40,079 bases of DNA from assembly GCA_018829545.1 (NCBI GenBank), contig JAHJTX010000350.1, forward strand, positions 1 to 40,079, read 5' to 3'. Shown here in pieces: positions 26,771 to 40,079 of this stretch. A program made the position numbers and the translations under genes. Source of the DNA: Bacteroidota bacterium. Its GTDB lineage: Bacteria; Bacteroidota; Ignavibacteria; Ignavibacteriales; Melioribacteraceae. The notes beneath the pieces were generated by a model. The model ran no database searches, was not told where the DNA came from, and saw nothing but the letters and a program-made list of their open reading frames with translations. How positions within the stretch are numbered: position 1 is the first letter of the stretch; each line of letters begins with the position of its first letter.

Positions 26771-26974
26771 TCAATAACTCAATAATTTGTTAATCCCCAG
26801 CTCGACAAGTTTCTGATCCGCTATCCCAATGTAGCCAAGCATTTCTTTATATACCTCAGTAGCTCCGTAACTTCCCGAACTGCCAATATCCATTGTCAAT
26901 GTTGCGGTAAGAATCGCTTTAGATATTTCATAAATCAATTTAGTTGAATTGAACGCATTTTTACTTTGCTGCAA
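26771..26974 (-). CDS. Small unrecognised reading frame overlapping cimA end
   Basis: A 67-codon frame beginning with TTG inside the last 14 bases of cimA and reading MQQSKNAFNSTKLIYEISKA, ending in QKLVELGINKLLSY. I do not recognise it. No proper Shine-Dalgarno or ATG supports it. It could be a small coupled gene at the operon end, a remnant of a larger gene, or chance. Confidence 0.2.
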   Translation of the reverse strand: MQQSKNAFNSTKLIYEISKAILTATLTMDIGSSGSYGATEVYKEMLGYIGIADQKLVELGINKLLSY

Positions 26975-28550
26975 GCTCTTGTTTACCTTTATGATACTGA
27001 AACAATTTGTAATTTATGCTATCGCTTAGAGCTTTGAAACTAGCCTCAATGATATTTGTTGATACGCCGACAGTTCCCCACGTTTCTATTTTATCACTCG
27101 ATTCTATCATAACTCTTACTTTAGCCGCAGTTCCATCCTTCTCATCTAACACACGAACTTTATAGTCAATAAGTTTAATCTCAGAAATTTCCGGATAGAA
27201 TCTGAGCAAAGCTTTGCGCAGAGCTCGGTCTAATGCATTTACCGGGCCATCCCCGTTTGAAGCTGTATGTTCAATTTCATTATTCACCTCAATTTTTAAT
27301 ACTGCTTCTGAACTTGAATTTCCGGCATCGTCATAAAAGACATTCACTTTTGAATCTATTAATTTGAAGAACGGAGAAAATTCGTTTTTTTCTGATCTTA
27401 AGATCAACTCAAAGGAAGCTTCCGCGCCATCGAACTGATAACCATTATATTCGAGTGACTTGATGCGATCGACAACTTTTTTACTTAATTCTTTATCCTC
27501 AGAAAGATCAATTCCAACTTCTTTTGCTTTATACTTAACATTACTTTGCCCCGATAAATCTGAGACCAAAACTCGCTGTTTATTCCCCACTAATTCTGGT
27601 TGGATGTGCTCATACATTCTATTGTCCTTAATTACTGCGCTGACGTGTATACCGCCCTTGTGAGCAAAAGCAGATTTTCCTATGTACGCTGCTCGTGTAT
27701 TTGGGTGAATATTTATTAATTCATAAACGTAATTTGAAACCGACGCTAAGCTGCTGAGCTGATTTTTTTGATTTGTCTCTAAATTCATTTTCAAAATTAG
27801 ATTTGGGATAATACTGCAAAGATTTGCATTTCCGCATCTTTCCCCCACTCCATTAAATGTACCTTGCACGTGAGTCGCTCCTGCTTGAATTGCTGTTAAC
27901 GAATTTGCAACTGCGAGTTCACTATCATTATGAGTATGTATGCCGATTCTTGTATCACCAAATTCTTTTTTCACTAATGTTACGATTTCAAAAACTTCTG
28001 TTGGCAACGAACCGCCATTGGTATCGCAAAGGACTAATGTATCTGAACCACCTTTGACTGCAGAATCTAACATTGATAACGCAAAATTTGGATCATGCTT
28101 GTAACCATCAAAAAAATGTTCCGCATCAAAAATCACCCGTCTGCCAAATGATTTTAAGTATTTCACGGATTTATAAATCAACTCGCCATTTTCATCATCA
28201 GTCAGACCCAGCCCTTTTTGAGAATGAAGCTGCCAAGTCTTTCCGAAAATAGAAACAACCGGCGTATCGGAATCTACAAGAGCATTTAAATTAATATCTC
28301 CTTCAACATCCGAAAGTGAACGCGCAGTTGAACCAAAAGCACAGAGTTTGGCGTGAGAAAATTTAAGATTTTTAGCTTGCTTAAAAAACATTTCATCGCG
28401 TGGATTACTACCTGGCCAGCCGCCTTCAATGACGTCTATTCCAAATTCATCAAGCCTTTTGGCAATAAGGAGTTTATCTTGCACGGAAATGTTAACTCCC
28501 TCACCCTGGGTTCCGTCGCGTAAAGTTGTATCAAATATTTCTATAAACAT
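26961..28550 (-). CDS. cimA: (R)-citramalate synthase
   Basis: Condenses pyruvate with acetyl-CoA to citramalate, the first step of threonine-independent isoleucine synthesis. The N-terminal TIM barrel shows DTTLRDGTQGEGV, the IEGGWPGSNPRD block typical of the CimA branch rather than LeuA, the metal-binding GIHTHNDSELAVANS, and GVGERCGNANL. The C-terminal part, with DGPVNALDRALRKAL, is the LeuA-type allosteric domain, usually sensing isoleucine in CimA. It has 529 residues, an ordinary size. ATG start, 35 bp after leuD. It is the last recognisable gene of the operon. A few family members are called 2-isopropylmalate synthase, but a separate LeuA exists upstream. Confidence 0.9.
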   Translation of the reverse strand: MFIEIFDTTLRDGTQGEGVNISVQDKLLIAKRLDEFGIDVIEGGWPGSNPRDEMFFKQAKNLKFSHAKLCAFGSTARSLSDVEGDINLNALVDSDTPVVSIFGKTWQLHSQKGLGLTDDENGELIYKSVKYLKSFGRRVIFDAEHFFDGYKHDPNFALSMLDSAVKGGSDTLVLCDTNGGSLPTEVFEIVTLVKKEFGDTRIGIHTHNDSELAVANSLTAIQAGATHVQGTFNGVGERCGNANLCSIIPNLILKMNLETNQKNQLSSLASVSNYVYELINIHPNTRAAYIGKSAFAHKGGIHVSAVIKDNRMYEHIQPELVGNKQRVLVSDLSGQSNVKYKAKEVGIDLSEDKELSKKVVDRIKSLEYNGYQFDGAEASFELILRSEKNEFSPFFKLIDSKVNVFYDDAGNSSSEAVLKIEVNNEIEHTASNGDGPVNALDRALRKALLRFYPEISEIKLIDYKVRVLDEKDGTAAKVRVMIESSDKIETWGTVGVSTNIIEASFKALSDSINYKLFQYHKGKQELAAK

Positions 28551-28585
28551 GCTAATCCTCTTTTCAAATAAATTTGATGACTACA

Positions 28586-29143
28586 CTAAATCAAGTTATT
28601 AAGTTTTGCGTATTCAAAAATGTTTCCTGCTTCAATTATAGGAAGTATGTCTCCGAGCGGATTTAGATCATACTCTTCCGATTTGGTAATATTGCGGAGT
28701 TTATTATCGGAGAGAACAATTTCTAAATCGTCACCGGTTGAAATTTTATCATTCAATTTTATTCCAGTTTCATACGGAATTAAAAACCCACCATCGACAG
28801 AATTTCTATAAAATATTCTCGCATAGGATTCTGCAATTATAACTTCGACGCCAGCAACTTTAAGTGCAAATGGAGCATGCTCTCGTGAAGAGCCGCATCC
28901 AAAATTTGAACCGCCAATTATAATATTAAACTGTGAAGTGAAATTATTGCCTACAATAAAAGGTACGCCTCCCAATGGTAATCCCGCATCTTTTATCGGA
29001 ACTCCGGAAAATGCAAACTTTCCATAATTTTTTGATTCTATAGGATCGCTTAAACTATAAACTAAATGCTCTGCCGGTATTATTTGGTCGGTATCAACAT
29101 TATTCCCTAAAACAAAAGCCTTCCCTTTAATTACTTTTTCCAT
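28586..29143 (-). CDS. leuD: 3-isopropylmalate dehydratase small subunit
   Basis: Small (swivel-domain) subunit of isopropylmalate isomerase, which converts 2- to 3-isopropylmalate and, in the CimA route, citramalate to beta-methylmalate. It has 185 residues, closer to the short archaeal-like form than to the roughly 200-residue E. coli LeuD. Hallmarks are GNNVDTDQIIPAEHL, the GSNFGCGSSREHAP substrate-binding block and ESYARIFYRNSVDGG. ATG start, 12 bp after leuC. Confidence 0.95.
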   Translation of the reverse strand: MEKVIKGKAFVLGNNVDTDQIIPAEHLVYSLSDPIESKNYGKFAFSGVPIKDAGLPLGGVPFIVGNNFTSQFNIIIGGSNFGCGSSREHAPFALKVAGVEVIIAESYARIFYRNSVDGGFLIPYETGIKLNDKISTGDDLEIVLSDNKLRNITKSEEYDLNPLGDILPIIEAGNIFEYAKLNNLI

Positions 29144-29155
29144 GTGTTGTATTCC

Positions 29156-30451
29156 TTATAAATAATCTCTTGGATCGGTTATGCTTCCTCTAATTGCAGA
29201 TGCTGCGACAGTGAGAGGCGACGCTAAATAAACATCCGATTTTTTGCTTCCCATTCTTCCTGGAAAGTTTCTATTTGTTGTTGATATCACAACCTCGCCG
29301 TCTACCGCGCGACCAATCGTATCGGAGGGTCCGCCAAGACAAGCAGCGCAAGAAGATTGGGCAATGTAACAGCCTGCATTTTCAAAAATTTGTTTTAATG
29401 AAATTCCATTAAATTTTTCTTCTTCAAGCTGCCGCGAAATTAACGTGCTTGCAGGTACAATAAACGTTGGGACTTTAACCCGATTACCATAAATTATTTT
29501 TGCGGCATTTGTAAAGTCGCTGAGTTTTCCTCCCGTACAAGAACCTATATAACACTTTGTCAGCTTAGTCCCTTCAACATTCCTAACAGTGTCTTTGTTA
29601 TCCGGGCTATGAGGTTTGGCAACAAGCGGTTCTAATTTGCTTACATCATAATTATAGATTGATTTATATTTTGCATCATCATCGCTTTCAAATATTTCGT
29701 ATGGTTTGTAAGTACGGGCCTTCACGTAGTTCATCGTTACTTCATCGGCTTTAATAATCCCGTTCATAGCTCCGCCTTCAATAGCCATATTTGTCAATGT
29801 CATTCTTTCGTTCATATCCATCTCGAAAACGGCTTCACCGTCAAACTCCAACGCGCAGTAAGTCCCGCCATCCGTGGTAATATCTCCAAGTACTTGCAAA
29901 ATCAAATCCTTAGCGGTTAGGTATTTTGGTAATTCACCATTGAAAACGAACTTAATCGATTCGGGAATTCTTTCCCAAATTTTTCCTGTACCTAGGATAA
30001 ATGCCGCATCAGTGTTACCGACTCCGGTTGCGAACATTCCAAACGCACCGGATGTGCAAGTGTGTGAATCTGTACCAAATAAAACTGTGCCTGGTAAATT
30101 AAATCCCTCTTCTGCAAGAGCTATATGGCAGACGCCTTTATAATCCGCAGTACCCACATCATAATAATTTGGCAGATTATAATCCTTGGCAAATTGCCTT
30201 AAAATTTCCACGTTCCTATTAGCATGAGAATTTTTTGTAAATATGTAATGATCAGGAAAAATCACCAACTTGTCTTTATCCCAAATTTTTGCATTCTCAC
30301 CAAACTCTTTTTTCCAGATTTCTATTGTGGGCGGACCGCATACATCGTGTGTCATTAAAACATCAACATCAAGCCAAACGTTTTCACCAGGTTTAACATT
30401 TTTTTTGCCCGCTGACTTTGAAAGAATTTTTTCAGTAATCGTCATTTGCAT
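29156..30451 (-). CDS. leuC: 3-isopropylmalate dehydratase large subunit
   Basis: Aconitase-family [4Fe-4S] subunit that pairs with LeuD. It has 431 residues, the short archaeal/homoaconitase-like type rather than the roughly 466-residue E. coli type. Cluster ligands are visible in CYIGSCTGGKLSDF and SSCAACLGG, and substrate motifs in LFGTDSHTCTSGAFG and NRNFPGRMG. The first ATG is supported by AGAGG inside the end of leuA, seven bases upstream; another ATG lies two codons later. It begins 3 bp after leuA. Confidence 0.95.
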   Translation of the reverse strand: MQMTITEKILSKSAGKKNVKPGENVWLDVDVLMTHDVCGPPTIEIWKKEFGENAKIWDKDKLVIFPDHYIFTKNSHANRNVEILRQFAKDYNLPNYYDVGTADYKGVCHIALAEEGFNLPGTVLFGTDSHTCTSGAFGMFATGVGNTDAAFILGTGKIWERIPESIKFVFNGELPKYLTAKDLILQVLGDITTDGGTYCALEFDGEAVFEMDMNERMTLTNMAIEGGAMNGIIKADEVTMNYVKARTYKPYEIFESDDDAKYKSIYNYDVSKLEPLVAKPHSPDNKDTVRNVEGTKLTKCYIGSCTGGKLSDFTNAAKIIYGNRVKVPTFIVPASTLISRQLEEEKFNGISLKQIFENAGCYIAQSSCAACLGGPSDTIGRAVDGEVVISTTNRNFPGRMGSKKSDVYLASPLTVAASAIRGSITDPRDYL

Positions 30452-30454
30452 TTA

Positions 30455-32038
30455 TTAACCTCTAACTCTGATTTGGTTTTCGAATTCAAGATCAAAATAT
30501 TCATCTAATTTTTGAGGTTTATTATTGTTAAGCGCTTGCAGATATGCCTTCCCGCTCGCTTCAATTATGTCCGTCGATAAACCTCTTCCGTTCAAAATTT
30601 TATTCCCAAGTTTAAGCCTCAAAGTAACTTCTCCGAGCGCTTGCCGTCCTGAAGTAACCGATCTAACAGAATAAGATTCCACAGTGGGTTTAATATCCAA
30701 CGCACGGTCAAGTGCGTTAAAAAGTGCGTCAACGGGTCCGTCTCCAGTCGAGGATTCTTCAAAAACATTTTCAGGTGTTTTAATTCTAACAGTTGCAGTA
30801 GGAATTGCAGCGGTACCAGAGGTTACATTGAGATATTCAATTTTGTAAAATGACGATTGTGTTAGTACGTCATCGCCCATCAAAACGCGTAAGTCATCGT
30901 CGAATACTTCTTTCTTTTTATCGGCTAATTCCAGAAACGATTCATAAACTTTTTGCATTTCATCTTCCGTTGGAGTATACCCAAGTTCTTTCAATCTTGC
31001 ACTTAAACCATGCCTGCCTGAGTGCCTTCCAAGAATAATTTTTGTCTTGTTTACTCCAACGGATTCCGGCGTCATTATTTCATAAGTGAATTTGTTTTTC
31101 AGCATTCCATCTTGATGAATTCCGCTTTCATGTGAAAATGCATTATCTCCAACTATCGCCTTGTTTGGTTGAACTATTATTCCAGTAAATCCGGAAACCA
31201 TTCTGCTCGTATTATATATTTCTGTAGTCTTTATCTCGGTGTAGAAATCAACAATATCTTTACGTACGCGCAACGCCATAACGAACTCTTCAAGCGAAGC
31301 GTTACCGGCTCTTTCTCCAATTCCATTTATTGTGCATTCAATCTGACGGACTCCGTTTTGAATAGCCGCGAGAGAATTTGCAACTGCCAATCCAAGATCA
31401 TTATGGCAGTGAGCGCTGATGATTGCTTTCTCGATGTTGCTTACTCTACTTTTTAACTCTCGAATTTTATCACCAAATTCAGATGGAAAAGTATAACCCG
31501 TTGTATCGGGTATATTAACCGTTGTTGCGCCTGCTTCAATTACGGATTCTATAATTTCTGCCAAATATCCGATATCTGTTCTTCCGGCATCTTCTGCAGA
31601 ATACTCAACGTCATCCGTAAATGTTTTTGCGTAAGCGACGGCATCGTAAGACATTTGCAAAACCATGTTTCTTTTTTCGCTAAGTGATGCGCCATATTTA
31701 CTATCCCCAAATTTGCCGAGTATGTGAATATCAGATGTACTTGAGAAAGTATGAATACGCGGATGCCTCGCGTTTAACAACGCATCATTAGCGATTTTGA
31801 TATCATATTCTTTTGCGCGGCATAGGGCAGCAATAATTTTGTCAGATTCATCTGCAATTCTTTTTACTGCTTCGAACTGTGCCGGAGATGATACCGGAAA
31901 TCCTGCTTCAATAACATCCACGTTTAATCTTGAAAGTTGCCGGGCAATCTCTAATTTATCGTGTACAGATAATGATGCTCCGGGCGATTGTTCACCGTCT
32001 CTTAAAGTTGTATCAAAAATTATAATTTTCTCTTTCAT
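30455..32038 (-). CDS. leuA: 2-isopropylmalate synthase
   Basis: Condenses 2-ketoisovalerate with acetyl-CoA, the committed step to leucine. The catalytic barrel shows DTTLRDGEQSPGASL, HCHNDLGLAVANSLAAIQNG and GIGERAGNASLEE. The HSGRHGLSARLKELG region leads to the C-terminal leucine-sensing domain with DGPVDALFNALDRAL. The open frame reaches 32092 inside leuB, but ATG at 32038 follows GAGGAAATA and fits the family start MKEKIIIFDTTLRDGEQ, giving 527 residues. Confidence 0.95.
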   Translation of the reverse strand: MKEKIIIFDTTLRDGEQSPGASLSVHDKLEIARQLSRLNVDVIEAGFPVSSPAQFEAVKRIADESDKIIAALCRAKEYDIKIANDALLNARHPRIHTFSSTSDIHILGKFGDSKYGASLSEKRNMVLQMSYDAVAYAKTFTDDVEYSAEDAGRTDIGYLAEIIESVIEAGATTVNIPDTTGYTFPSEFGDKIRELKSRVSNIEKAIISAHCHNDLGLAVANSLAAIQNGVRQIECTINGIGERAGNASLEEFVMALRVRKDIVDFYTEIKTTEIYNTSRMVSGFTGIIVQPNKAIVGDNAFSHESGIHQDGMLKNKFTYEIMTPESVGVNKTKIILGRHSGRHGLSARLKELGYTPTEDEMQKVYESFLELADKKKEVFDDDLRVLMGDDVLTQSSFYKIEYLNVTSGTAAIPTATVRIKTPENVFEESSTGDGPVDALFNALDRALDIKPTVESYSVRSVTSGRQALGEVTLRLKLGNKILNGRGLSTDIIEASGKAYLQALNNNKPQKLDEYFDLEFENQIRVRG

Positions 32039-32072
32039 TATTTCCTCGCTTTTTAGCTCAACAATTTTGTCG

Positions 32073-33167
32073 TCAAAGTGTGAACAGTCCAATCGCTTGA
32101 TTGTGATACAATTCTTTAAAATTAGTAATTACTATCTGAGTCATTTTTTCTGTTGAAACAATTTTACAACCTTCGGATTGGATATCGACCGTTCTGTATC
32201 CATCTTCCAAAGTTTTTACAATTGCTTCATTAATTAGACTTGCTGCTTTTTTCATTTCGAACGAATAGTCGAACATCATTGCAACTGAGGCAATTGCTGC
32301 AAGCGGATTAGCTTTATTTTGACCGGCTATGTCCGGCGCACTTCCATGAACCGGTTCGTAGAGTGCGTATTTATTTCCCAAACTTGCAGATGGCAGCATT
32401 CCCAAACTGCCCGTAATCATTCCGGCAATATCGCTTAGAATATCACCAAAAAGATTTGAAGTTAATATCACATCAAATTGTTTTGGATTGTGTACAATCT
32501 GCATCGCCGCATTATCTACATACAAATCATTTAACAGCACATCTTCATATTCCTTGTGAACTTGATGAACCACATTACGCCAGAACTGAGAAACTTCCAG
32601 CACGTTAGCTTTATCGACAGAGGTAACTTTATTATTTCTTTCCCGCGCAATTTTAAACGCCATGTGAGCAATTCTTTCAACTTCATCCTTGAAATAAACC
32701 ATTGTATTTAAACCATGGTTGGCATCAAATTCTCGCGGCTCTCCAAAATAAATTCCTCCAGTCAATTCGCGAAGTACCAGGAAATCAACTCCACTCAGAA
32801 CCTCCTTTTTTAATGAGGATGAATCGATGAGAGGCTTGTAAATTTTTGCCGGTCGAATATTTGTGAACAATCCCAACGCTTTCCGGAGTTTCAATAATGC
32901 GGCTTCGGGTTTTAAATTATGGGGTAAACTTTCCCATTTGTAACCGCCAACCGCTCCCAGAAATACTGCATCGGAATTATAACACGCCTGTAACGTTTCT
33001 TTAGTTAACGGTTCGCCATACGCATCATAAGATGATCCGCCAATCAGATGTTTTTCAAATTCCAATTCCACATTGAAAAGCTCTGCAACAGTTTTCATAA
33101 CACTTAGGGCAGATTTTGTCACTTCAATTCCGATTCCATCTCCAGGCAGTAAAATTATTTTGTACAT
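32073..33167 (-). CDS. leuB: 3-isopropylmalate dehydrogenase
   Basis: NAD-dependent oxidative decarboxylation of 3-isopropylmalate; in the CimA route it also yields 2-ketobutyrate. It has 364 residues with ILLPGDGIGIEVTKSALSVM at the N-terminus, LRELTGGIYFGEPRE, the metal-site segment TSNLFGDILSDIAGMITGSL, and HGSAPDIAGQNKANP in the cofactor-binding region. ATG with TTAGGAG upstream. It follows ilvC by 36 bp and links the ilv and leu halves of the operon. Confidence 0.96.
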   Translation of the reverse strand: MYKIILLPGDGIGIEVTKSALSVMKTVAELFNVELEFEKHLIGGSSYDAYGEPLTKETLQACYNSDAVFLGAVGGYKWESLPHNLKPEAALLKLRKALGLFTNIRPAKIYKPLIDSSSLKKEVLSGVDFLVLRELTGGIYFGEPREFDANHGLNTMVYFKDEVERIAHMAFKIARERNNKVTSVDKANVLEVSQFWRNVVHQVHKEYEDVLLNDLYVDNAAMQIVHNPKQFDVILTSNLFGDILSDIAGMITGSLGMLPSASLGNKYALYEPVHGSAPDIAGQNKANPLAAIASVAMMFDYSFEMKKAASLINEAIVKTLEDGYRTVDIQSEGCKIVSTEKMTQIVITNFKELYHNQAIGLFTL

Positions 33168-33203
33168 TAAATCTCCTAATTATTGAATTCCCACAGTGGG
33201 TTG

Positions 33204-34193
33204 CTATTTTTTCAGCCAGCTCATCATACCGCGAAGTTTATTGCCGACAACTTCAATAGGATGCTCTCTATTATCCTTTCTCAATTGATTCATATTCGGC
33301 TGCCCGTTGTTGTATTCATCAAGCCATTCTTTTGCGAAGCTGCCGTCTTGAACTTCTTGAAGAATTTTTTTCATTTCTTTTTTTGTCTCTTCCGTTATTA
33401 TTCTGCTTCCTCGTGTCATGCCGCCATATTCCGCTGTATCGCTCACAGAATAATTCATTCTTGAAAGACCGCCTTCGTAATACAAATCAACAATCAATTT
33501 CATTTCGTGCATGCACTCGAAGTAAGCAAGTTCCGGGGGATATCCGGCTTCAGTTAAAGTTTCAAATCCTGCTTTAATTAATTGAGCTGAGCCGCCGCAT
33601 AAAACAGCTTGCTCGCCAAAAAGATCTGTTTCAGTTTCATCCTTAAAATTTGTTTCTATTACGCCGGCATGAGTTCCGCCAATTCCTTTTGCCCAAGCAA
33701 GAGCCAAATCTTTTGTGCTGCCGCTGTAATCTTGAAAGACAGCAATTAAACATGGCGTTCCGCTGCCTTGCTGATATGTTCTTCTAACTAAATGACCCGG
33801 ACTCTTCGGAGCGATCATCATAACATTTACGTTTTTTGGAGGAACAATTTGCTTGTAATGAATATTGAATCCGTGACCGAATGCAAGCGTATCGCCTTCT
33901 TTTAAGTGTGGAGCAATTTCATTATCATAAACAGCTTTTTGATTTTGGTCGGGAAGCAGAACCATAATCACATCGGATGATTTAACTGCTTCTGCTACTG
34001 TTTTTACTTCGATTCCCTCTTCTTTAGCTTTGTTACAACTAGGTGAATCACTCCGCAAGCCAACGCAGACTTGCATACCGCTTTCTTTTAAATTGAGCGC
34101 ATGGGCATGACCCTGGCTTCCAAAACCAAGAACTGCAATCTTTTTATTTTTTAGAAGATCCAAATTTGCGTCGCTATTATAATAAACTTTCAT
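33204..34193 (-). CDS. ilvC: Ketol-acid reductoisomerase (class I)
   Basis: Isomerises and reduces acetolactate and acetohydroxybutyrate for valine/leucine and isoleucine. It has 329 residues, the short class I size. The Rossmann motif is [19 protein letters not shown]. The loop after it ([15 protein letters not shown]) contains Arg and Ser residues that favour NADPH, though an Asp is also present, so cofactor preference is open. The knotted C-terminal domain is intact ([28 protein letters not shown]). ATG start 19 bp after ilvN. Confidence 0.96.
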
Positions 34194-34212
34194 TTCTAAC
34201 CTCTATTAATTC

Positions 34213-34722
34213 TTAAGTTATATTTTGTTTTTTTTTAATCTTGGTTTGCTCGCCTCTTTGGAGGGCAACAATTCCGCTTCGCGCCATTTCTTTAATTCCA
34301 AAAGGTGCAAGAACATTTACTGCCGCGTCAACTTTGTCCGGCGGACCGGTCACTTCTATCGTCATGCTTCTATTTGTTATATCAACAATATTTCCGCGGA
34401 AGATATCGCACAAATTTTTAATCTCTTCCATTGATCCTTTGCTAATATTGACTTTGATTAATGCAAGCTCACGTTCAACCCTCGGCGCATGCGATAGGTC
34501 AACTACCTTGATTGTATCGATCAAACGGTTGAGCTGTTTTACAACTTGATCAATAAGTTGTGCGTCACCTTGTGTTACAATTGTCATTCTGGAAATGTCT
34601 TCAATCTCGGTTTCCCCGATTGAAATACTTCTGATATTAAATCCTTTTCCGCTGAACATTGTCGCAACGCGATCGAATGAGCCGAAATGATTCTCTACTA
34701 GAATAGATATTGTGTGTTTCAT
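34213..34722 (-). CDS. ilvN: Acetolactate synthase small (regulatory) subunit
   Basis: Regulatory subunit that gives acetohydroxyacid synthase valine sensitivity and full activity. It has 169 residues: an N-terminal ACT domain (ISILVENHFGSFDRVATMFS, GFNIRSISIG) and a C-terminal ACT-like half (ALIKVNIS to IEVTGPPDKVDA). The ATG overlaps the ilvB stop in TAATG, so it is translationally coupled to the catalytic subunit. The name ilvH is equally used. Confidence 0.95.
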   Translation of the reverse strand: MKHTISILVENHFGSFDRVATMFSGKGFNIRSISIGETEIEDISRMTIVTQGDAQLIDQVVKQLNRLIDTIKVVDLSHAPRVERELALIKVNISKGSMEEIKNLCDIFRGNIVDITNRSMTIEVTGPPDKVDAAVNVLAPFGIKEMARSGIVALQRGEQTKIKKKQNIT

Positions 34723-36440
34723 TATATCATCCTCTTTGGGTTTAATCGTTTTACAATCATATCTGAAATTGATCCTCCTGAAGGAACCATTGGAAAGACC
34801 ATATCTTCTTTTACTACTTTGAATTCCACAAGTACCGGGCGATCATTAATAGAAAAAGCTTTTTCCAATAATCCATCAACATCTTTTGGATTATCCGTTG
34901 AAAATGACTCTATATTAAATGCTTCGCCCACTTTAACGAAATCAGGATTGCTTAAACTTAGATCCGTAAAGCTGTACTTTTCCGCATGAAATAATTCCTG
35001 CCACTGCCTTACCATTCCGAGAAAGTTATTATTTATGATGAAAAACTTAACGGGAACTTTATAATAGGATGCGGTGATTAATTCCTGAATATTCATTTGG
35101 AAACCGCCGTCTCCGCTGATTGAAATTATTGGTCTATCCTTAACGGCAAATGAAGCGCCGATTGAAGCAGGTACGGAAAAACCCATTGTTCCCAAACCGC
35201 CGCTGGTAATGTTAGAACGTGGATAATTGTATTTGAAATACTGTGCAGTCCACATTTGATGCTGTCCAACATCCGTTATTACAACCGCGTTTCCTTTTGT
35301 CTTTTCCGAAATTTTTTCTATAACAAATTCAGTTCTCAGTCGACCATCGTTATCTTCATAATGCAGGGGACATTCATCTCTCCATTCATTTATTTGAGAT
35401 AGCCAATCGTCAGTGTCAGGTGTTCGCGGCATTTCGGATGCAATTTCAGCGAGGATATGTTTAACATCCCCAACGATTGGAAGATCAACGACAACATTTT
35501 TATCGATGCAAGTCGGATCGATATCAACATGAATTTTATAAGCGCCGGTTGCGAAAGTATCTGTTTTTCCGGTAACGCGGTCATCGAACCTTGCGCCGAG
35601 GGAAACAAGCACATCGCAATTATTTACTGCCTGGTTCGCCCAATATGTGCCGTGCATCCCCAGCATACCTAGCGACAATTCATCAGTACCAGGGAATGCG
35701 CCAAGTCCCTGAAGAGTCATCGTAACAGGCAATTTATTTTCTCTTGCAAACAAAGCCAATTCATTTGCTCCGCCGGACATTATTACGCCTCCGCCAACGT
35801 AGAGTAATGGTTTCTTTGCTTTAGAAATTATCTCTGCCGCTTTTTTAATTTGATTGCTGTGACCCTTATAGTTTGGTTTGTATCCTCTCAAATCTACGTC
35901 TTCGGGATATTCAAATTCACAATTGGAAGCAATTACATCTTTTGGAAGATCAACCACCACCGGTCCCGGTCTTCCGGTTGAGGCGATGAAAAAAGCTTTC
36001 CTAATTGTTAACGCGAGATCTTTAACGTCTCTTACTAAAAAATTGTGTTTTGTAATCGGTCTTGTAATGCCAACAATATCAGCTTCCTGAAATGCATCAT
36101 TACCAATAAGGTGCGATGGAACCTGACCTGTAAACACAACGATTGGAACGGAATCCATATAAGCATCAGCTATTCCGGTCACGGTATTTGTTGCCCCTGG
36201 TCCGGAAGTAACCAATACAACGCCAACTTTGCCTGAAGCTTTGGCATAACCTTCGGCAGCATGAACTGCGCCTTGCTCGTGGCGGACAAGTATGTGTTTT
36301 AAGAAATCCACATCATACAAATGTTCGTATAGTTTGAGAACGGATCCTCCCGGATAGCCAAAAATATATTCAACTTTTTCGTGCTTCAGACATTCAAAAA
36401 ATATATCTGCACCGCTTAATAATTTATTTTCTTTTTTCAT
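34722..36440 (-). CDS. ilvB: Acetolactate synthase large (catalytic) subunit
   Basis: Thiamine-diphosphate enzyme that joins two pyruvates, or pyruvate and 2-ketobutyrate. It has 572 residues. The catalytic Glu lies in HEQGAVHAAEGYAKASGK, the FAD-binding middle domain is present, and the ThDP motif runs GDGGFQMNIQELITASYYKV and ends in NN. The name ilvI would serve as well. It lies 8 bp after ilvD and overlaps ilvN by one base. Confidence 0.96.
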   Translation of the reverse strand: MKKENKLLSGADIFFECLKHEKVEYIFGYPGGSVLKLYEHLYDVDFLKHILVRHEQGAVHAAEGYAKASGKVGVVLVTSGPGATNTVTGIADAYMDSVPIVVFTGQVPSHLIGNDAFQEADIVGITRPITKHNFLVRDVKDLALTIRKAFFIASTGRPGPVVVDLPKDVIASNCEFEYPEDVDLRGYKPNYKGHSNQIKKAAEIISKAKKPLLYVGGGVIMSGGANELALFARENKLPVTMTLQGLGAFPGTDELSLGMLGMHGTYWANQAVNNCDVLVSLGARFDDRVTGKTDTFATGAYKIHVDIDPTCIDKNVVVDLPIVGDVKHILAEIASEMPRTPDTDDWLSQINEWRDECPLHYEDNDGRLRTEFVIEKISEKTKGNAVVITDVGQHQMWTAQYFKYNYPRSNITSGGLGTMGFSVPASIGASFAVKDRPIISISGDGGFQMNIQELITASYYKVPVKFFIINNNFLGMVRQWQELFHAEKYSFTDLSLSNPDFVKVGEAFNIESFSTDNPKDVDGLLEKAFSINDRPVLVEFKVVKEDMVFPMVPSGGSISDMIVKRLNPKRMI

Positions 36441-36448
36441 TTTTCACC

Positions 36449-38128
36449 CTAAAAGTTATTTAATAAAATTGCGCCTTTGCTTGCAGAAGTTACCATGCGG
36501 GAATATCTGGCTAAGTAACCGCGTTTAATTTTTGGTTCAAACTTTGGTAGTGCTTCAAGTCTTTTTTGAATTTCGCCGATGCTTAATTTCACTTCTAATT
36601 TTCTGTTTGGAATATCAATTTCAATTATGTCGCCCTCTTTCAAAGCTGCAATCGGTCCGTACTCTGCCGCTTCAGGAGAAACATGACCAATACAAGCACC
36701 ACGAGTACCTCCCGAAAATCTCCCGTCTGTTATTAGCGCAACCTTATCTCCCAAACCCATGCCCATAATTGCGCTTGTTGGCGATAGCATTTCCGGCATT
36801 CCAGGTCCGCCTTTTGGTCCTTCATAACGGATAACAACAACATCCCCAGCTTTAACATCGCCCAAATAAATTTTTTCAACTGCTTCTTCTTGTGATTCAT
36901 AAATTTTTGCTGGACCGGAGAACTTCATCATCTTCTCATCAACCGCTGCGGTTTTAATAATTGACCCGTCCAGCGCAAGATTTCCGAAAAGAACTGCTAA
37001 TCCACCTTTGAGTGAGAAAGGCGCTTCAATCGTTCGGATTACATTTTCATCTTTGATTTCTGCTGAAGAAATGTTTTCTCCAAGAGTTTTTCCGGTTACA
37101 GTTAAGCAATCCATATGAAGTAAATTTTTCTTTGAAAGCTCTTTAAGAATTGCGGATATACCGCCGGCTTTATCAACATCTTCGATGTGGATTTCCTTTG
37201 TAGCGGGACTTACTTTACAGATATACGGAACCTTATCTGCAAGTTCATTCAGCATTTGCAAATCAAGATTTATTCCGGCTTCATAAGCAACAGCAAGAGT
37301 GTGAAGAATTGTATTTGTGCTTCCGCCCATTGCAAGATCAAGAGTGAAAGCATTTTTAAATGAATTCAGATTTAGAATATTACTAGGCTTTATATCATCC
37401 TTAACAAGCTGAAGTATTTGTCTTGAAGCGGCTTGGGCAAGTTCTTTCCTTTTGGGATCGATCGCTAAAATTGTTCCGTTACCCGGCAAAGCTAAACCTA
37501 AAGCTTCGAGCAAACAGTTCATGGAATTTGCTGTGAACATTCCGGCGCAAGATCCGCATGTAGGACATCCAAAATCCTCCAACTGTTTTAATTCTTCTTC
37601 GTCAATGGAGCCGTTCGCAAATTTTCCAACGCCTTCAAACACCGAAATCAAATCAATTTTTTCGCCGCTTGGTAAACGTCCTGCCTTCATGGGTCCGCCG
37701 GAAATAAATATTGTTGGGATATCAACTCTAGCGGCAGCCATCATCATTCCGGGAACAATTTTATCACAGTTTGGAATACATATCATTCCATCAAGGCGGT
37801 GGGCTTCAACGACAGTTTCAACGCAATCAGCAATTAATTCTCTACTAGCGAGTGAATAGCGCATGCCAAGATGCCCCATTGCAATCCCATCGTCAACGCC
37901 AATCGTATTGAATTCAAATGGAACGCCGCCGGCATCGCGGACTGCTTCTTTAATTACCCTTCCGAATTCTTGAAGATGAACATGCCCGGGAATTAAGTCT
38001 ATATACGAATTGCATACACCGATGAATGGTTTATTAAAATCTTCATCGCTTTTAATAGCTCCCGTTGCTTTCAATAAACTTCTATGTGGAGCTTTGTCAA
38101 ATCCTTTTTTTATTAAGTCAGACCGCAA
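36449..38128 (-). CDS. ilvD: Dihydroxy-acid dehydratase, TTG start
   Basis: Fe-S dehydratase giving 2-keto acids for valine, leucine and isoleucine. It has 559 residues. The cluster Cys ligands appear in [15 protein letters not shown] and [18 protein letters not shown], and the C-terminal [20 protein letters not shown] block is intact. The start is TTG at 38128, supported by GGAGG at 38134-38138 with a 5-nt spacer and the family start MRSDLIKKG. It is the first enzyme gene of the operon, 109 bp after the leader peptide. Codons 2-5 can pair with the leader RNA. Confidence 0.96.
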
Positions 38129-38194
38129 AAATACCTCCGCAAAAAAAATCCTCAGAGTACAACTAAAGGTTTGGTCAACCCCTCGATCTGACTT
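38115..38194 (-). promoter_or_regulatory. Candidate attenuator/translation-control region before ilvD
   Basis: In the RNA, AAGTCAGATC (38185-38194) can form a 10-bp helix (one G-U pair, 8 bp perfect) with GGTCTGACTT (38115-38124) inside the first ilvD codons. This would enclose the GGAGG and the TTG start. The same upstream element can instead pair through TCAGA (38187-38191) with TCTGA (38152-38156), which lies just before a T8 run (38141-38148); a small GGTT/AACC hairpin sits inside. Two exclusive folds, one terminator-like, fit attenuation, but the stems are modest and the model is inference. Confidence 0.4.
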
Positions 38195-38237
38195 TTGTTT
38201 ATTTTATTTTGTGAGATTTTGGGATTGGCTTATCATT

Positions 38238-38408
38238 TTAGCTAATAATGGTAAGAGTATTTACCAGAATTAGAGCTAAAGCAATTAGAATCCCTAGTAG
38301 AATTGTTTCTGAAGATACGATAATAGGTGAAGAAATATTCACAACTTTGCCGCTGATGGTTACTGCCATCAATCCGGAATACGCGATATGTTGTTGTGAG
38401 TTTTTCAT
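38238..38408 (-). CDS. Branched-chain leader peptide of the ilv-leu operon
   Basis: A 56-codon frame from ATG 38408 to TAA 38238-38240. The product reads MKNSQQHIAYSGLMAVTISG, KVVNISSPIIVSSE, then TILLGILIALALILVNTLTI and IS. Twenty-four of 56 residues are Ile, Leu or Val, with a dense run at the C-terminus, and four of eight Leu codons are CTA. It starts about 14 nt after the predicted transcription start and ends 109 bp before ilvD. This is the layout of an attenuation leader such as ilvL of E. coli, where ribosome stalling on Ile/Leu/Val codons relieves termination. No Shine-Dalgarno is seen. The alternative is a one-span membrane microprotein. Confidence 0.65.
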   Translation of the reverse strand: MKNSQQHIAYSGLMAVTISGKVVNISSPIIVSSETILLGILIALALILVNTLTIIS

Positions 38409-38428: not shown

Positions 38429-38457
38429 AATATAGTTTAGGAATATTTAATTGTCAA
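38429..38457 (-). promoter_or_regulatory. Consensus promoter of the ilv-leu-cimA operon
   Basis: TTGACA (38452-38457), a 17-base spacer and TATATT (38429-38434) on the minus strand. The predicted transcription start is near 38422. The boxes are identical to those of the rpsL promoter. A 10-bp perfect palindrome CGAGGCCTCG lies about 30 bp upstream (38487-38496), position unexplained. Confidence 0.85.
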
Positions 38458-38540
38458 GCTTTTGTTGAGATTGAGTAAAAAAAATGCGAGGCCTCGATAT
38501 GGGATTGGGTGAATCGCTCATTCGCTCAAAAATGAGACGA

Positions 38541-38774
38541 TGAGCGAACAGCCTGTTCGCTCTACAAGCGCAGCAAACTAAAGTTTGTATTACAACTTGT
38601 CGAAGCTCAACTGAAATCGTTGTTTCGCTTCGATTTACAAGATCAGTTTGTAACTCGAAGCGAAGCTTCGTGAAGTTGTTTTTGTAGAGCGAATCGCTGA
38701 TTCGCTCTAAAGGAAAGGGAATTATTAATATCTCTATCCATTTTTTGTAAAGCGAACAGGCTGTTCGCTCTACA
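38541..38774. repeat. REP composite block A (left of RAYT)
   Basis: Begins and ends with GCGAACAG-x-CTGTTCGC palindromes (38544-38560 and 38746-38774) and includes a second palindrome, AGAGCGAATCGCTGATTCGCTCT type (38686-38708), and CGAAGCGAAGCTTCG (38656-38670). It aligns almost base for base over about 235 bp with block B on the other side of the transposase gene. The bases before it (38512-38540) hold a degenerate copy, GAATCGCTCATTCGCTC. Confidence 0.9.
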
Positions 38775-38828
38775 AGCGTAAGCTAACTAAAGTTGGCGGT
38801 CAATAATTAAAGTTTCGTGAAGTTATTT

Positions 38829-38857
38829 TGTAAAGCGAACAGCCTGTTCGCACTACA
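38829..38857. repeat. REP palindrome upstream of RAYT
   Basis: A 29-bp unit with core GCGAACAGCCTGTTCGC and outer TGTAAA/ACTACA arms. It is preceded by CGTGAAGTTATTTTG, the same lead-in seen before the copy at 39839. Between it and the transposase start (38858-38965) I see only AT-rich sequence with no clear promoter. Confidence 0.9.
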
Positions 38858-38965
38858 AGATTAAGTTGAAACTCAAAGCGAAGATTGTTTTATTGAGCCA
38901 ATCGCCCCCTCCCTTTTTGGTTTTAGCTTTCAGTAAAAAGAAGTTTTTATTATTTTACGATTGTT

Positions 38966-39700
38966 ATGGCAGCCATAAAAATTTTTTATGAAAGAAATCT
39001 TCCACATTACCAGCCGCCTGGTTTTGCTTTCTTTGTAACTTTCCGATTAACAAATTCGATACCGATTAAAACTATAATCGAGTTAAAAAATGAAAGGCAG
39101 AAAGAGCTTGAGAAAATTTCATCAATCCAGAACAAAAGCGAAAAGAAAGAGCATTATAGAAAATATATCGGTGCATACTTCGGTAAGTTTGATCGTCTGC
39201 TTGATGGAAGTACAACCGGACCAAAATGGTTATTAAAGCCCGAGATTGCTGAAATTGTAAAAGAAGCAATTCATTTTAGAGATGGGAAGAAATACGATTT
39301 ATTTGCATACACTATAATGCCGAACCATGTGCATTTAGTAATAAAACCATTTGTAGAGCGAAGCGAAGTTTCGAATAAACTTCAGGAGATTGAAAAAATA
39401 TCAAGCACCGCTTCCGATGGTATTGAAAACGATTTGCATGTAAAGCGAACAGACTGTTCGCACTACATATTGACATTTATTCTCAGATCATTGAAATGGT
39501 ATACGGCAATAGAATGTAACAAACTCCTCAATCGTTCTGGCGCGTTTTGGCAGCATGAAAGTTATGACCATGTTGTTCGAGATGAGAAAGAATTAAAAAG
39601 GATTGTAAAATATATCTTATTGAATCCTGTAAAAGCCGGATTGTGTGAAACTGCAGAAAACTGGAAATGGAGTTATTATAATCCAAATTTTTTAGTGTAA
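38966..39700 (+). CDS. REP-associated tyrosine transposase (RAYT, Y1/IS200-like)
   Basis: RAYTs are single-copy relatives of IS200/IS605 TnpA that nick REP hairpins. The Y1 domain is clear: YQPPGFAFFVTFRLTN at the start, the catalytic HVH in TIMPNHVHLVIKP (His121, His123), then SLKWYTAIECNKLLNRSGAF, WQHESYDHVVRD, and YILLNPVKAGL with the candidate catalytic Tyr216. It has 244 residues. Residues about 129-167 are unusual: two REP-type motifs lie in frame there (see repeats at 39353 and 39439), lengthening the gap between HVH and the SLKWYTA block. ATG start without Shine-Dalgarno. It is flanked by REP blocks A and B, as expected for a RAYT locus. Confidence 0.88.
   Translation: MAAIKIFYERNLPHYQPPGFAFFVTFRLTNSIPIKTIIELKNERQKELEKISSIQNKSEKKEHYRKYIGAYFGKFDRLLDGSTTGPKWLLKPEIAEIVKEAIHFRDGKKYDLFAYTIMPNHVHLVIKPFVERSEVSNKLQEIEKISSTASDGIENDLHVKRTDCSHYILTFILRSLKWYTAIECNKLLNRSGAFWQHESYDHVVRDEKELKRIVKYILLNPVKAGLCETAENWKWSYYNPNFLV
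39353..39373. repeat. REP-type motif inside the RAYT frame (first)
   Basis: GTAGAGCGAAGCGAAGTTTC resembles a join of two motifs of the flanking blocks, GTAGAGCGAA and CGAAGCGAAGCTTCG. It encodes VERSEVS (residues 130-136) just after the HVH motif, with the frame kept. Confidence 0.6.
39439..39467. repeat. Full REP palindrome inside the RAYT frame
   Basis: A complete 29-bp unit (core GCGAACAGACTGTTCGC, outer TGTAAA and ACTACA) encodes residues HVKRTDCSHY (158-167). It differs from the external copies at one central base and keeps the frame open. It lies between the catalytic HVH and the C-terminal helices. Confidence 0.9.
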
Positions 39701-39744
39701 ATTAAGCATACCTCATTCGGTAGTCTTGCATATTCGATTTCTGT

Positions 39745-39789
39745 TGTGTGAACAGACTTGACCGACAAGGGAGGGCTGTTCGCATTACA
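39745..39789. repeat. REP copy split by about 19 bp
   Basis: Left arm TGTGTGAACAG and right arm CTGTTCGCATTACA, the two halves of a REP, are separated by ACTTGACCGACAAGGGAGG instead of one or two central bases. The outer bases also differ slightly. It lies just after the RAYT stop; 39701-39744 shows nothing else. Confidence 0.55.
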
Positions 39790-39842
39790 ACTTGTCCAAA
39801 CTCTACTAAAATCGTTGTTTCGCATCGTGAAGTTATTTTGTA

Positions 39843-40079
39843 AAGCGAACAGGCTGTTCGCTCTACACACGCAAGCTAACTAAAGTTTGTATTACAACTT
39901 GTCGAAGCTTAACTAAATTCGTTGTTTCGCTTCGATTTACAAGATTAGTTTGTAACTCGAAGCGAAGCTTCGTGAAGTTGTTTTTGTAGAGCGAATCGCT
40001 GATTCGCTCTAAAGGAAATGGAATTATAAATATCTCTATAAAGTTTTATTGTAAAGCGAACAGGCTGTTCGCACTACAA
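39843..40079. repeat. REP composite block B (right of RAYT), cut by window end
   Basis: REP at 39839-39867, then the shared internal sequence (GTTTGTATTACAACTTGTCG, GTTTCGCTTCGATTTACAAG), CGAAGCGAAGCTTCG, the second palindrome type at 39988-40010, and a final REP at 40050-40078. It is nearly identical to block A in order and sequence. The window stops one base after the last REP, so the array may continue. Confidence 0.9.

Follow-up and report, generated by a model that had tools for sequence, protein, structure and literature searches.

Does the short reading frame that precedes ilvD in a member of the Melioribacteraceae encode the leader peptide of an attenuator, and, if so, by which step would the signal reach the genes that follow? 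The DNA analysed, called here the window, comprises 40,079 nucleotides from a Bacteroidota bacterium (contig JAHJTX010000350.1). Among proteins with named sources, the relatives of its IlvD put the window close to Stygiobacter electus and Melioribacter. The promoter, leader, and operon described below are located on its minus strand. Nine genes follow each other in a single direction, with small gaps or overlaps, in the order ilvD-B-N-C-leuB-A-C-D-cimA. The first structural gene, ilvD (36449–38128), starts with TTG and is preceded by the Shine-Dalgarno sequence GGAGG (38134–38138), and ilvB, ilvN, ilvC, leuB, leuA, leuC, leuD, and cimA make up the remainder of the operon (26961–36440). The NCBIfam equivalog cut-offs are exceeded for ilvD, ilvB, ilvN, ilvC, leuB, leuA, and cimA, and leuC and leuD pass at the subfamily level. 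The frame very probably encodes a leader peptide through which a ribosome-mediated attenuator controls all nine genes. A first-pass annotation had proposed such a branched-chain leader, and its proposal fits the competing RNA structures, the leucine codon bias and the content of the operon, with the reservation that most relatives lack a textbook terminator.

The reading frame and its promoter

The 56-codon frame placed at 38238–38408 by that annotation is present on the minus strand (38408–38238) and ends in a run rich in branched-chain residues. Isoleucine, leucine, and valine account for 24 of the 56 residues, with the highest density in the last third, and four of the codons are CTA, both counts agreeing with those reported earlier. 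The gap before ilvD, previously estimated at about 110 nt, measures 109 nt from the leader stop codon to the TTG at 38128. No Shine-Dalgarno-like sequence precedes the leader ATG.

Upstream of the frame, a −35 hexamer TTGACA (38452–38457) and a −10 hexamer TATATT (38429–38434) are separated by a 17-nt spacer, and a similar pair is found in most relatives. This promoter had been called perfect, but it matches only 11 of the 12 consensus positions. The leader ATG lies 20 nt past the −10 hexamer; the distance of about 14 nt formerly given between promoter and frame is thus correct only if it is counted from the putative transcription start, which would be located about 7 nt past the −10 hexamer. 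The region shows no excess of promoter-like matches, with 2 observed and 2.1 expected from shuffled versions of it. Ahead of the leader start, a promoter-like pair with P ≤ 0.1 relative to shuffles is present in 49 of the 59 leader loci, a set also used for RNA pairing and codon counts, which comprises 66 listed loci minus L126 and L133 (no leader) and five duplicates. Locus L066 lies outside this set; its frame qualifies, but no convincing arms 2 and 3 could be identified there.

Beyond the promoter, the window contains a gene for a REP-associated tyrosine transposase (38966–39700, NCBIfam NF047646), flanked on both sides (38500–38960 and 39700–40079) by repeats with GCGAACAGGCTGTTCGC-type palindromes. 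A sub-threshold Rfam microRNA match at 38682–38775 falls within repeats and was discarded.

Conservation and codon choice of the leader

In the family loci, a frame was counted if at least 10 of 14 residues were isoleucine, leucine, or valine and if it ended 60–160 nt upstream of ilvD; the threshold was relaxed to 9 of 14 for the order, phylum, and named loci. An IlvD match at E ≤ 1e-60 was obtained in 42 of 79 family genomes, two of them with distant genes (L063 and L064, 45–46% identical) that were left out, and all 40 others were read. A frame of this kind is present at the corresponding position in all 40 family loci, compared with 1 of 40 on the reverse strand and 0.2 of 40 in dinucleotide shuffles. 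The order sample gave an IlvD match in 47 of 113 genomes, 16 of which are outside the family and 14 of these with the IlvD N terminus, and all 14 carry the frame (0.1 in shuffles). The check suggested earlier, a comparison of the regions upstream of ilvD in relatives, was thereby carried out with a positive outcome at both levels. In the phylum sample, 45 of 148 genomes had an IlvD match; 27 of the 37 loci outside the order were read, and 20 of them have the frame (0.0 in shuffles). Additionally, upstream DNA was available for 78 of 80 named loci, of which 57 qualify (0.9 in shuffles), counts that overlap with those above because many named loci belong to the same species as the family, order, and phylum loci. 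The named loci with the frame include members of Chlorobiaceae, Calditrichota, Marinimicrobia, and Chloroflexota; no qualifying frame was found at this threshold in the named Ignavibacteriales loci L126 and L133, both of which have ilvD, nor in several Chlorobiaceae. Upstream of the excluded gene L064 (genome G002), whose product is 45% identical to the IlvD of the window, two short frames rich in branched-chain residues are arranged in tandem, and a hairpin with a T run comes after each of them.

A leader-peptide search of 58 genomes returned, besides the query itself, one clear homologue, 57% identical and located in genome G012; the other matches, with E between 0.05 and 1, were treated as chance. 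Among the last 22 codons in 12 close pairs, 19 of 38 substitutions exchange isoleucine, leucine, and valine for one another; in the 23 codons before them, 8 of 119 do so.

The choice of codons in the last 22 positions, outside region 1 defined below, is also biased. CTA represents 134 of 317 leucine codons there (42%) as opposed to 108 of 2244 (5%) in ilvD, whereas TTA and TTG together represent 35 of 317 in the leader run and 1136 of 2244 in ilvD, where TTA is the commonest leucine codon. The N-terminal halves of the leaders resemble ilvD, with 12% CTA and 36% TTA among 130 leucine codons. At least one CTA is present within the C-terminal run of 53 of the 59 leaders. In turn, the glycine of the Gly-Ile pair in region 1 is encoded by GGG at 41 of 56 sites, compared with 8% of the glycine codons of ilvD. 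According to a published account of enterobacterial attenuators (PMC1183508), CUA codons make the leu attenuator of Salmonella sensitive, UUA and UUG are predicted not to do so, and the replacement of CUA by CUG in that leader lowered the sensitivity. The strong preference for CTA and the avoidance of TTA and TTG offer an independent case for a theory of codon choice in attenuators that was, in the same account, built on Escherichia coli (PMC1183508).

Two explanations that dispense with attenuation can be weighed against these data. AT-rich DNA easily yields isoleucine and leucine codons, and 5 of the 40 reverse strands in the family do reach a looser threshold of 8 of 14 residues, so that a frame of this composition might have arisen by chance; this explanation is refuted by the 40 of 40 loci found at 10 of 14, against 0.2 in dinucleotide shuffles, as well as by a codon bias that runs towards the rare codon CTA, and its probability is close to nil. 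The frame might instead encode a small membrane-type peptide with a function of its own, to which any regulation would be incidental, as the hydrophobic C-terminal half and the conservation of the frame across genera could be taken to indicate. However, Pfam yields no match below E 0.1 and none near a cut-off, and NCBIfam none at all, while the conserved Gly-Ile pair and the last residues coincide with the RNA pairings described below. The differences between the leaders of L025 and L026 are equally distributed over the three codon positions (14, 14, and 14), indicating that the peptide as a whole is free of ordinary constraint. We consider a functional peptide very improbable.

Alternative pairings of the leader RNA

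Four segments of the transcript, numbered as they are read, can form competing helices. Region 1 (GGGATT, 38289–38294) consists of the Gly-Ile codons of the leader; it echoes the motif of region 3 and, like it, is complementary to region 2 (CAATCCC, 38221–38227). Within the 1:2 hairpin, the fold places an inner stem with the 5′ arm TTTAGCT (38274–38280) and the 3′ arm AGCTAAA (38237–38243), the latter overlapping the leader stop codon. Region 3 (GGGGTTG, 38176–38182) can pair either with region 2, forming an antiterminator, or with region 4. Region 4 plus a closing arm (together AACCTT ... TTG ... TCTGA, 38152–38171) and the 5′ closing arm TCAGA (38191–38187) belong to a terminator-like hairpin. 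The antiterminator 2:3 and the terminator-like 3:4 are mutually exclusive pairings. Region 2 starts 10 nt past the stop codon in the window and 0–23 nt, mostly 3–13 nt, past it in 40 loci, near enough for a terminating ribosome to be expected to mask it.

The 2:3 pairing is the best supported of these helices. Region 2 is complementary to region 3, situated about 40 nt further on, in nearly all loci, and the 2:3 helix is the sole consensus structure returned by RNAalifold for 55 sequences, and 4 of its 7 pairs show changes on both sides. When it is counted over nine pairs, 95.4% of 495 cells are paired, compared with 22–53% in slid versions, and 17 cells have changed on both sides, compared with 3.8 in shuffles and 1–6 when slid. 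Kinship inflates these covariation counts, but the changed states (C-G to U-A and A-U to G-C) are spread over several genera. Loci L031 and L136 were left out of the region 1 comparison, and L131 and L153 additionally out of the structure alignment. Comparison of sequences establishes the leader together with its position and codon bias, as well as the 2:3 pairing; the two remaining pairings are supported, but less strongly. For 3:4, the mean hairpin score is 13.1, compared with 7.2 in shuffles; 5% of shuffles or fewer do as well in 32 of 59 loci, a group that does not include the short form of the window (20%), whose extended form has an energy of −9.6 kcal/mol. The mean 1:2 pairing energy is −12.0 kcal/mol for arms of the same locus and −10.4 kcal/mol for swapped ones. 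Covariation of 1:2 is weak, with a two-sided change at 1 of 5 pairs, equalled in 402 of 500 shuffles, and the inner stem overlapping the stop codon is 76% paired.

The predicted fold of the window depends on where the RNA begins. From region 1 onward, 1:2 and 3:4 are formed together; starting at region 2, the fold is 2:3; and with region 2 omitted, it is again 3:4. Such a shift with the starting point corresponds to what the attenuation model asks of a moving ribosome. The 141 nt from the end of the leader to ilvD, if folded alone, are no better than their shuffles (z 0.08); the structural signal came from the comparison of loci and not from folding of the downstream region by itself.

From these features we infer the start site, the stalling, the termination, and the direction of regulation, as follows. 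The leader ATG would lie about 14 nt past the start of transcription, and a shortage of charged tRNA for isoleucine, leucine (mostly at CTA), or valine would stall the ribosome in the C-terminal run. The stalled ribosome would cover region 1, leaving region 2 free to pair with region 3, so that region 4 would stay unpaired and transcription would proceed into ilvD. If amino acids were sufficient, the ribosome would either cover the start of region 2 while at the stop codon or depart and allow 1:2 to form. With region 2 blocked in one way or the other, 3:4 would pair, and in the window genome the hairpin, together with eight U residues, would stop transcription just before the ribosome-binding site of ilvD.

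Known attenuators and the output step

The mechanism itself is known already, and the element in Ignavibacteria would be a new instance of it, a familiar type of switch in a little-studied group. Operons named as attenuated in PMC1183508 are the enterobacterial ilvGMEDA, ilvBN, and leu, and the present element shares with them a leader rich in branched-chain residues, alternative hairpins, and CUA as a leucine control codon. The likeness concerns these features. Unlike its enterobacterial counterparts, the single Ignavibacteria leader precedes ilv, leu, and cimA genes together, and most relatives have a weaker terminator or none. The ilvB-II, ilvB-OMG, and ilvB RNA motifs, for which PMC10272879 describes upstream frames rich in branched-chain residues before ilvB in Corynebacterium, several phyla, and Leptospira, are also comparable; in ilvB-II, such a frame is followed by a terminator and an antiterminator, but the motifs stand upstream of ilvB, whereas the element of the window precedes ilvD (PMC10272879). 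At the thresholds used, neither a T-box nor any other Rfam cis-element was detected at this element in the window and ten related loci; the tmRNA and SAM families that Rfam returned for other loci are unrelated.

Searches of the open-access literature by title and abstract found no paper on the attenuation of ilv operons in Ignavibacteria or Chlorobi. The abstract of Vitreschak et al. 2004 reportedly names Bacteroidetes/Chlorobi among the groups with candidate attenuators; if so, attenuators were predicted earlier in the wider group. The data extend leader-peptide control of branched-chain amino acid synthesis to Ignavibacteria, with sequence and covariation support, and suggest similar control in loci of Chlorobi, Calditrichota, Marinimicrobia, and Chloroflexota.

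The same family offers its own standard of comparison in the leaders of trpE and hisG, each of which was searched in 28 genomes and scanned at 22 loci. Like the ilv leaders, they are short frames ahead of the first gene and enriched in the amino acid that the pathway makes: tryptophan-rich frames (3 of 6 residues) precede 22 of 22 trpE genes, and histidine-rich ones (4 of 8 residues) precede 17 of 22 hisG genes, with 0.05 in shuffles in both cases. In the genome of the window (G000), the Trp leader upstream of trpE (L211, contig C284) ends in WAWWWNISV and is followed by a 14-pair terminator, while the frame upstream of hisG (L206, contig C162), one of the five below the histidine threshold, contains three His codons in a row and is accompanied by an 8-pair terminator.

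Unlike the ilv leaders, these trp and his leaders have strong terminators. Of the ilv loci, 2 of 59 have an uninterrupted stem with a U tract behind it, whereas in the family this pattern was detected at 17 of 22 loci for trp and at 21 of 22 for his. The stem pattern allows no bulges or interruptions and therefore undercounts ilv hairpins, but the contrast is still large. The same pattern occurs in 9 of 20 ilv loci taken as Chlorobiaceae, in 1 of 10 of Marinimicrobia type, and in 5 of 5 of Chloroflexota. In the window, a tract of eight T (38141–38148) begins 3 nt past a hairpin that is moderate and interrupted, and neither a terminator scan of the window nor the stem pattern detected a terminator there.

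These differences raise the question of whether the same leader and the same switch between 2:3 and 3:4 might act through access to the ribosome-binding site of ilvD, through Rho, or through RNA decay. In addition to the scarcity of unbroken stems, a U tract of 7 of 8 follows region 3 in just 22 of 59 loci, and the Shine-Dalgarno sequence of ilvD is paired in the folds of several genomes, both in favor of such an output. Against it, a U tract of 7–8 follows the hairpin in the window and in its close relatives L026 and L032–L036, the scan permits no bulges while the ilv hairpin is interrupted, and the stretch before ilvD folds weakly (mean z −0.97 if a U tract is present and −0.48 if not). A third hairpin near the Shine-Dalgarno sequence (CTGAAG ... 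TTCAG), present in a subset of relatives, could take part, but as a translational switch it was rejected for its weak folding and for acting, as drawn, with the wrong sign. An output of this kind is considered less likely. Attenuation by leader translation is very likely, and intrinsic termination is the likely output in the window and its clade.

For the group as a whole, we can speculate, with a good deal of doubt, that the ilv attenuator of Ignavibacteria senses through its leader peptide yet works in most lineages without an intrinsic terminator, unlike the trp and his leaders of the same genomes, and with an undescribed output located between region 4 and the ribosome-binding site of ilvD. 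With strong trp and his terminators beside weak ilv ones in one family, the output step becomes a well-defined question. In L153, a locus of candidate division KSB1, GTGAGTGGT-like units form a long inverted repeat between the attenuator and ilvD, with a fold of −56 kcal/mol.
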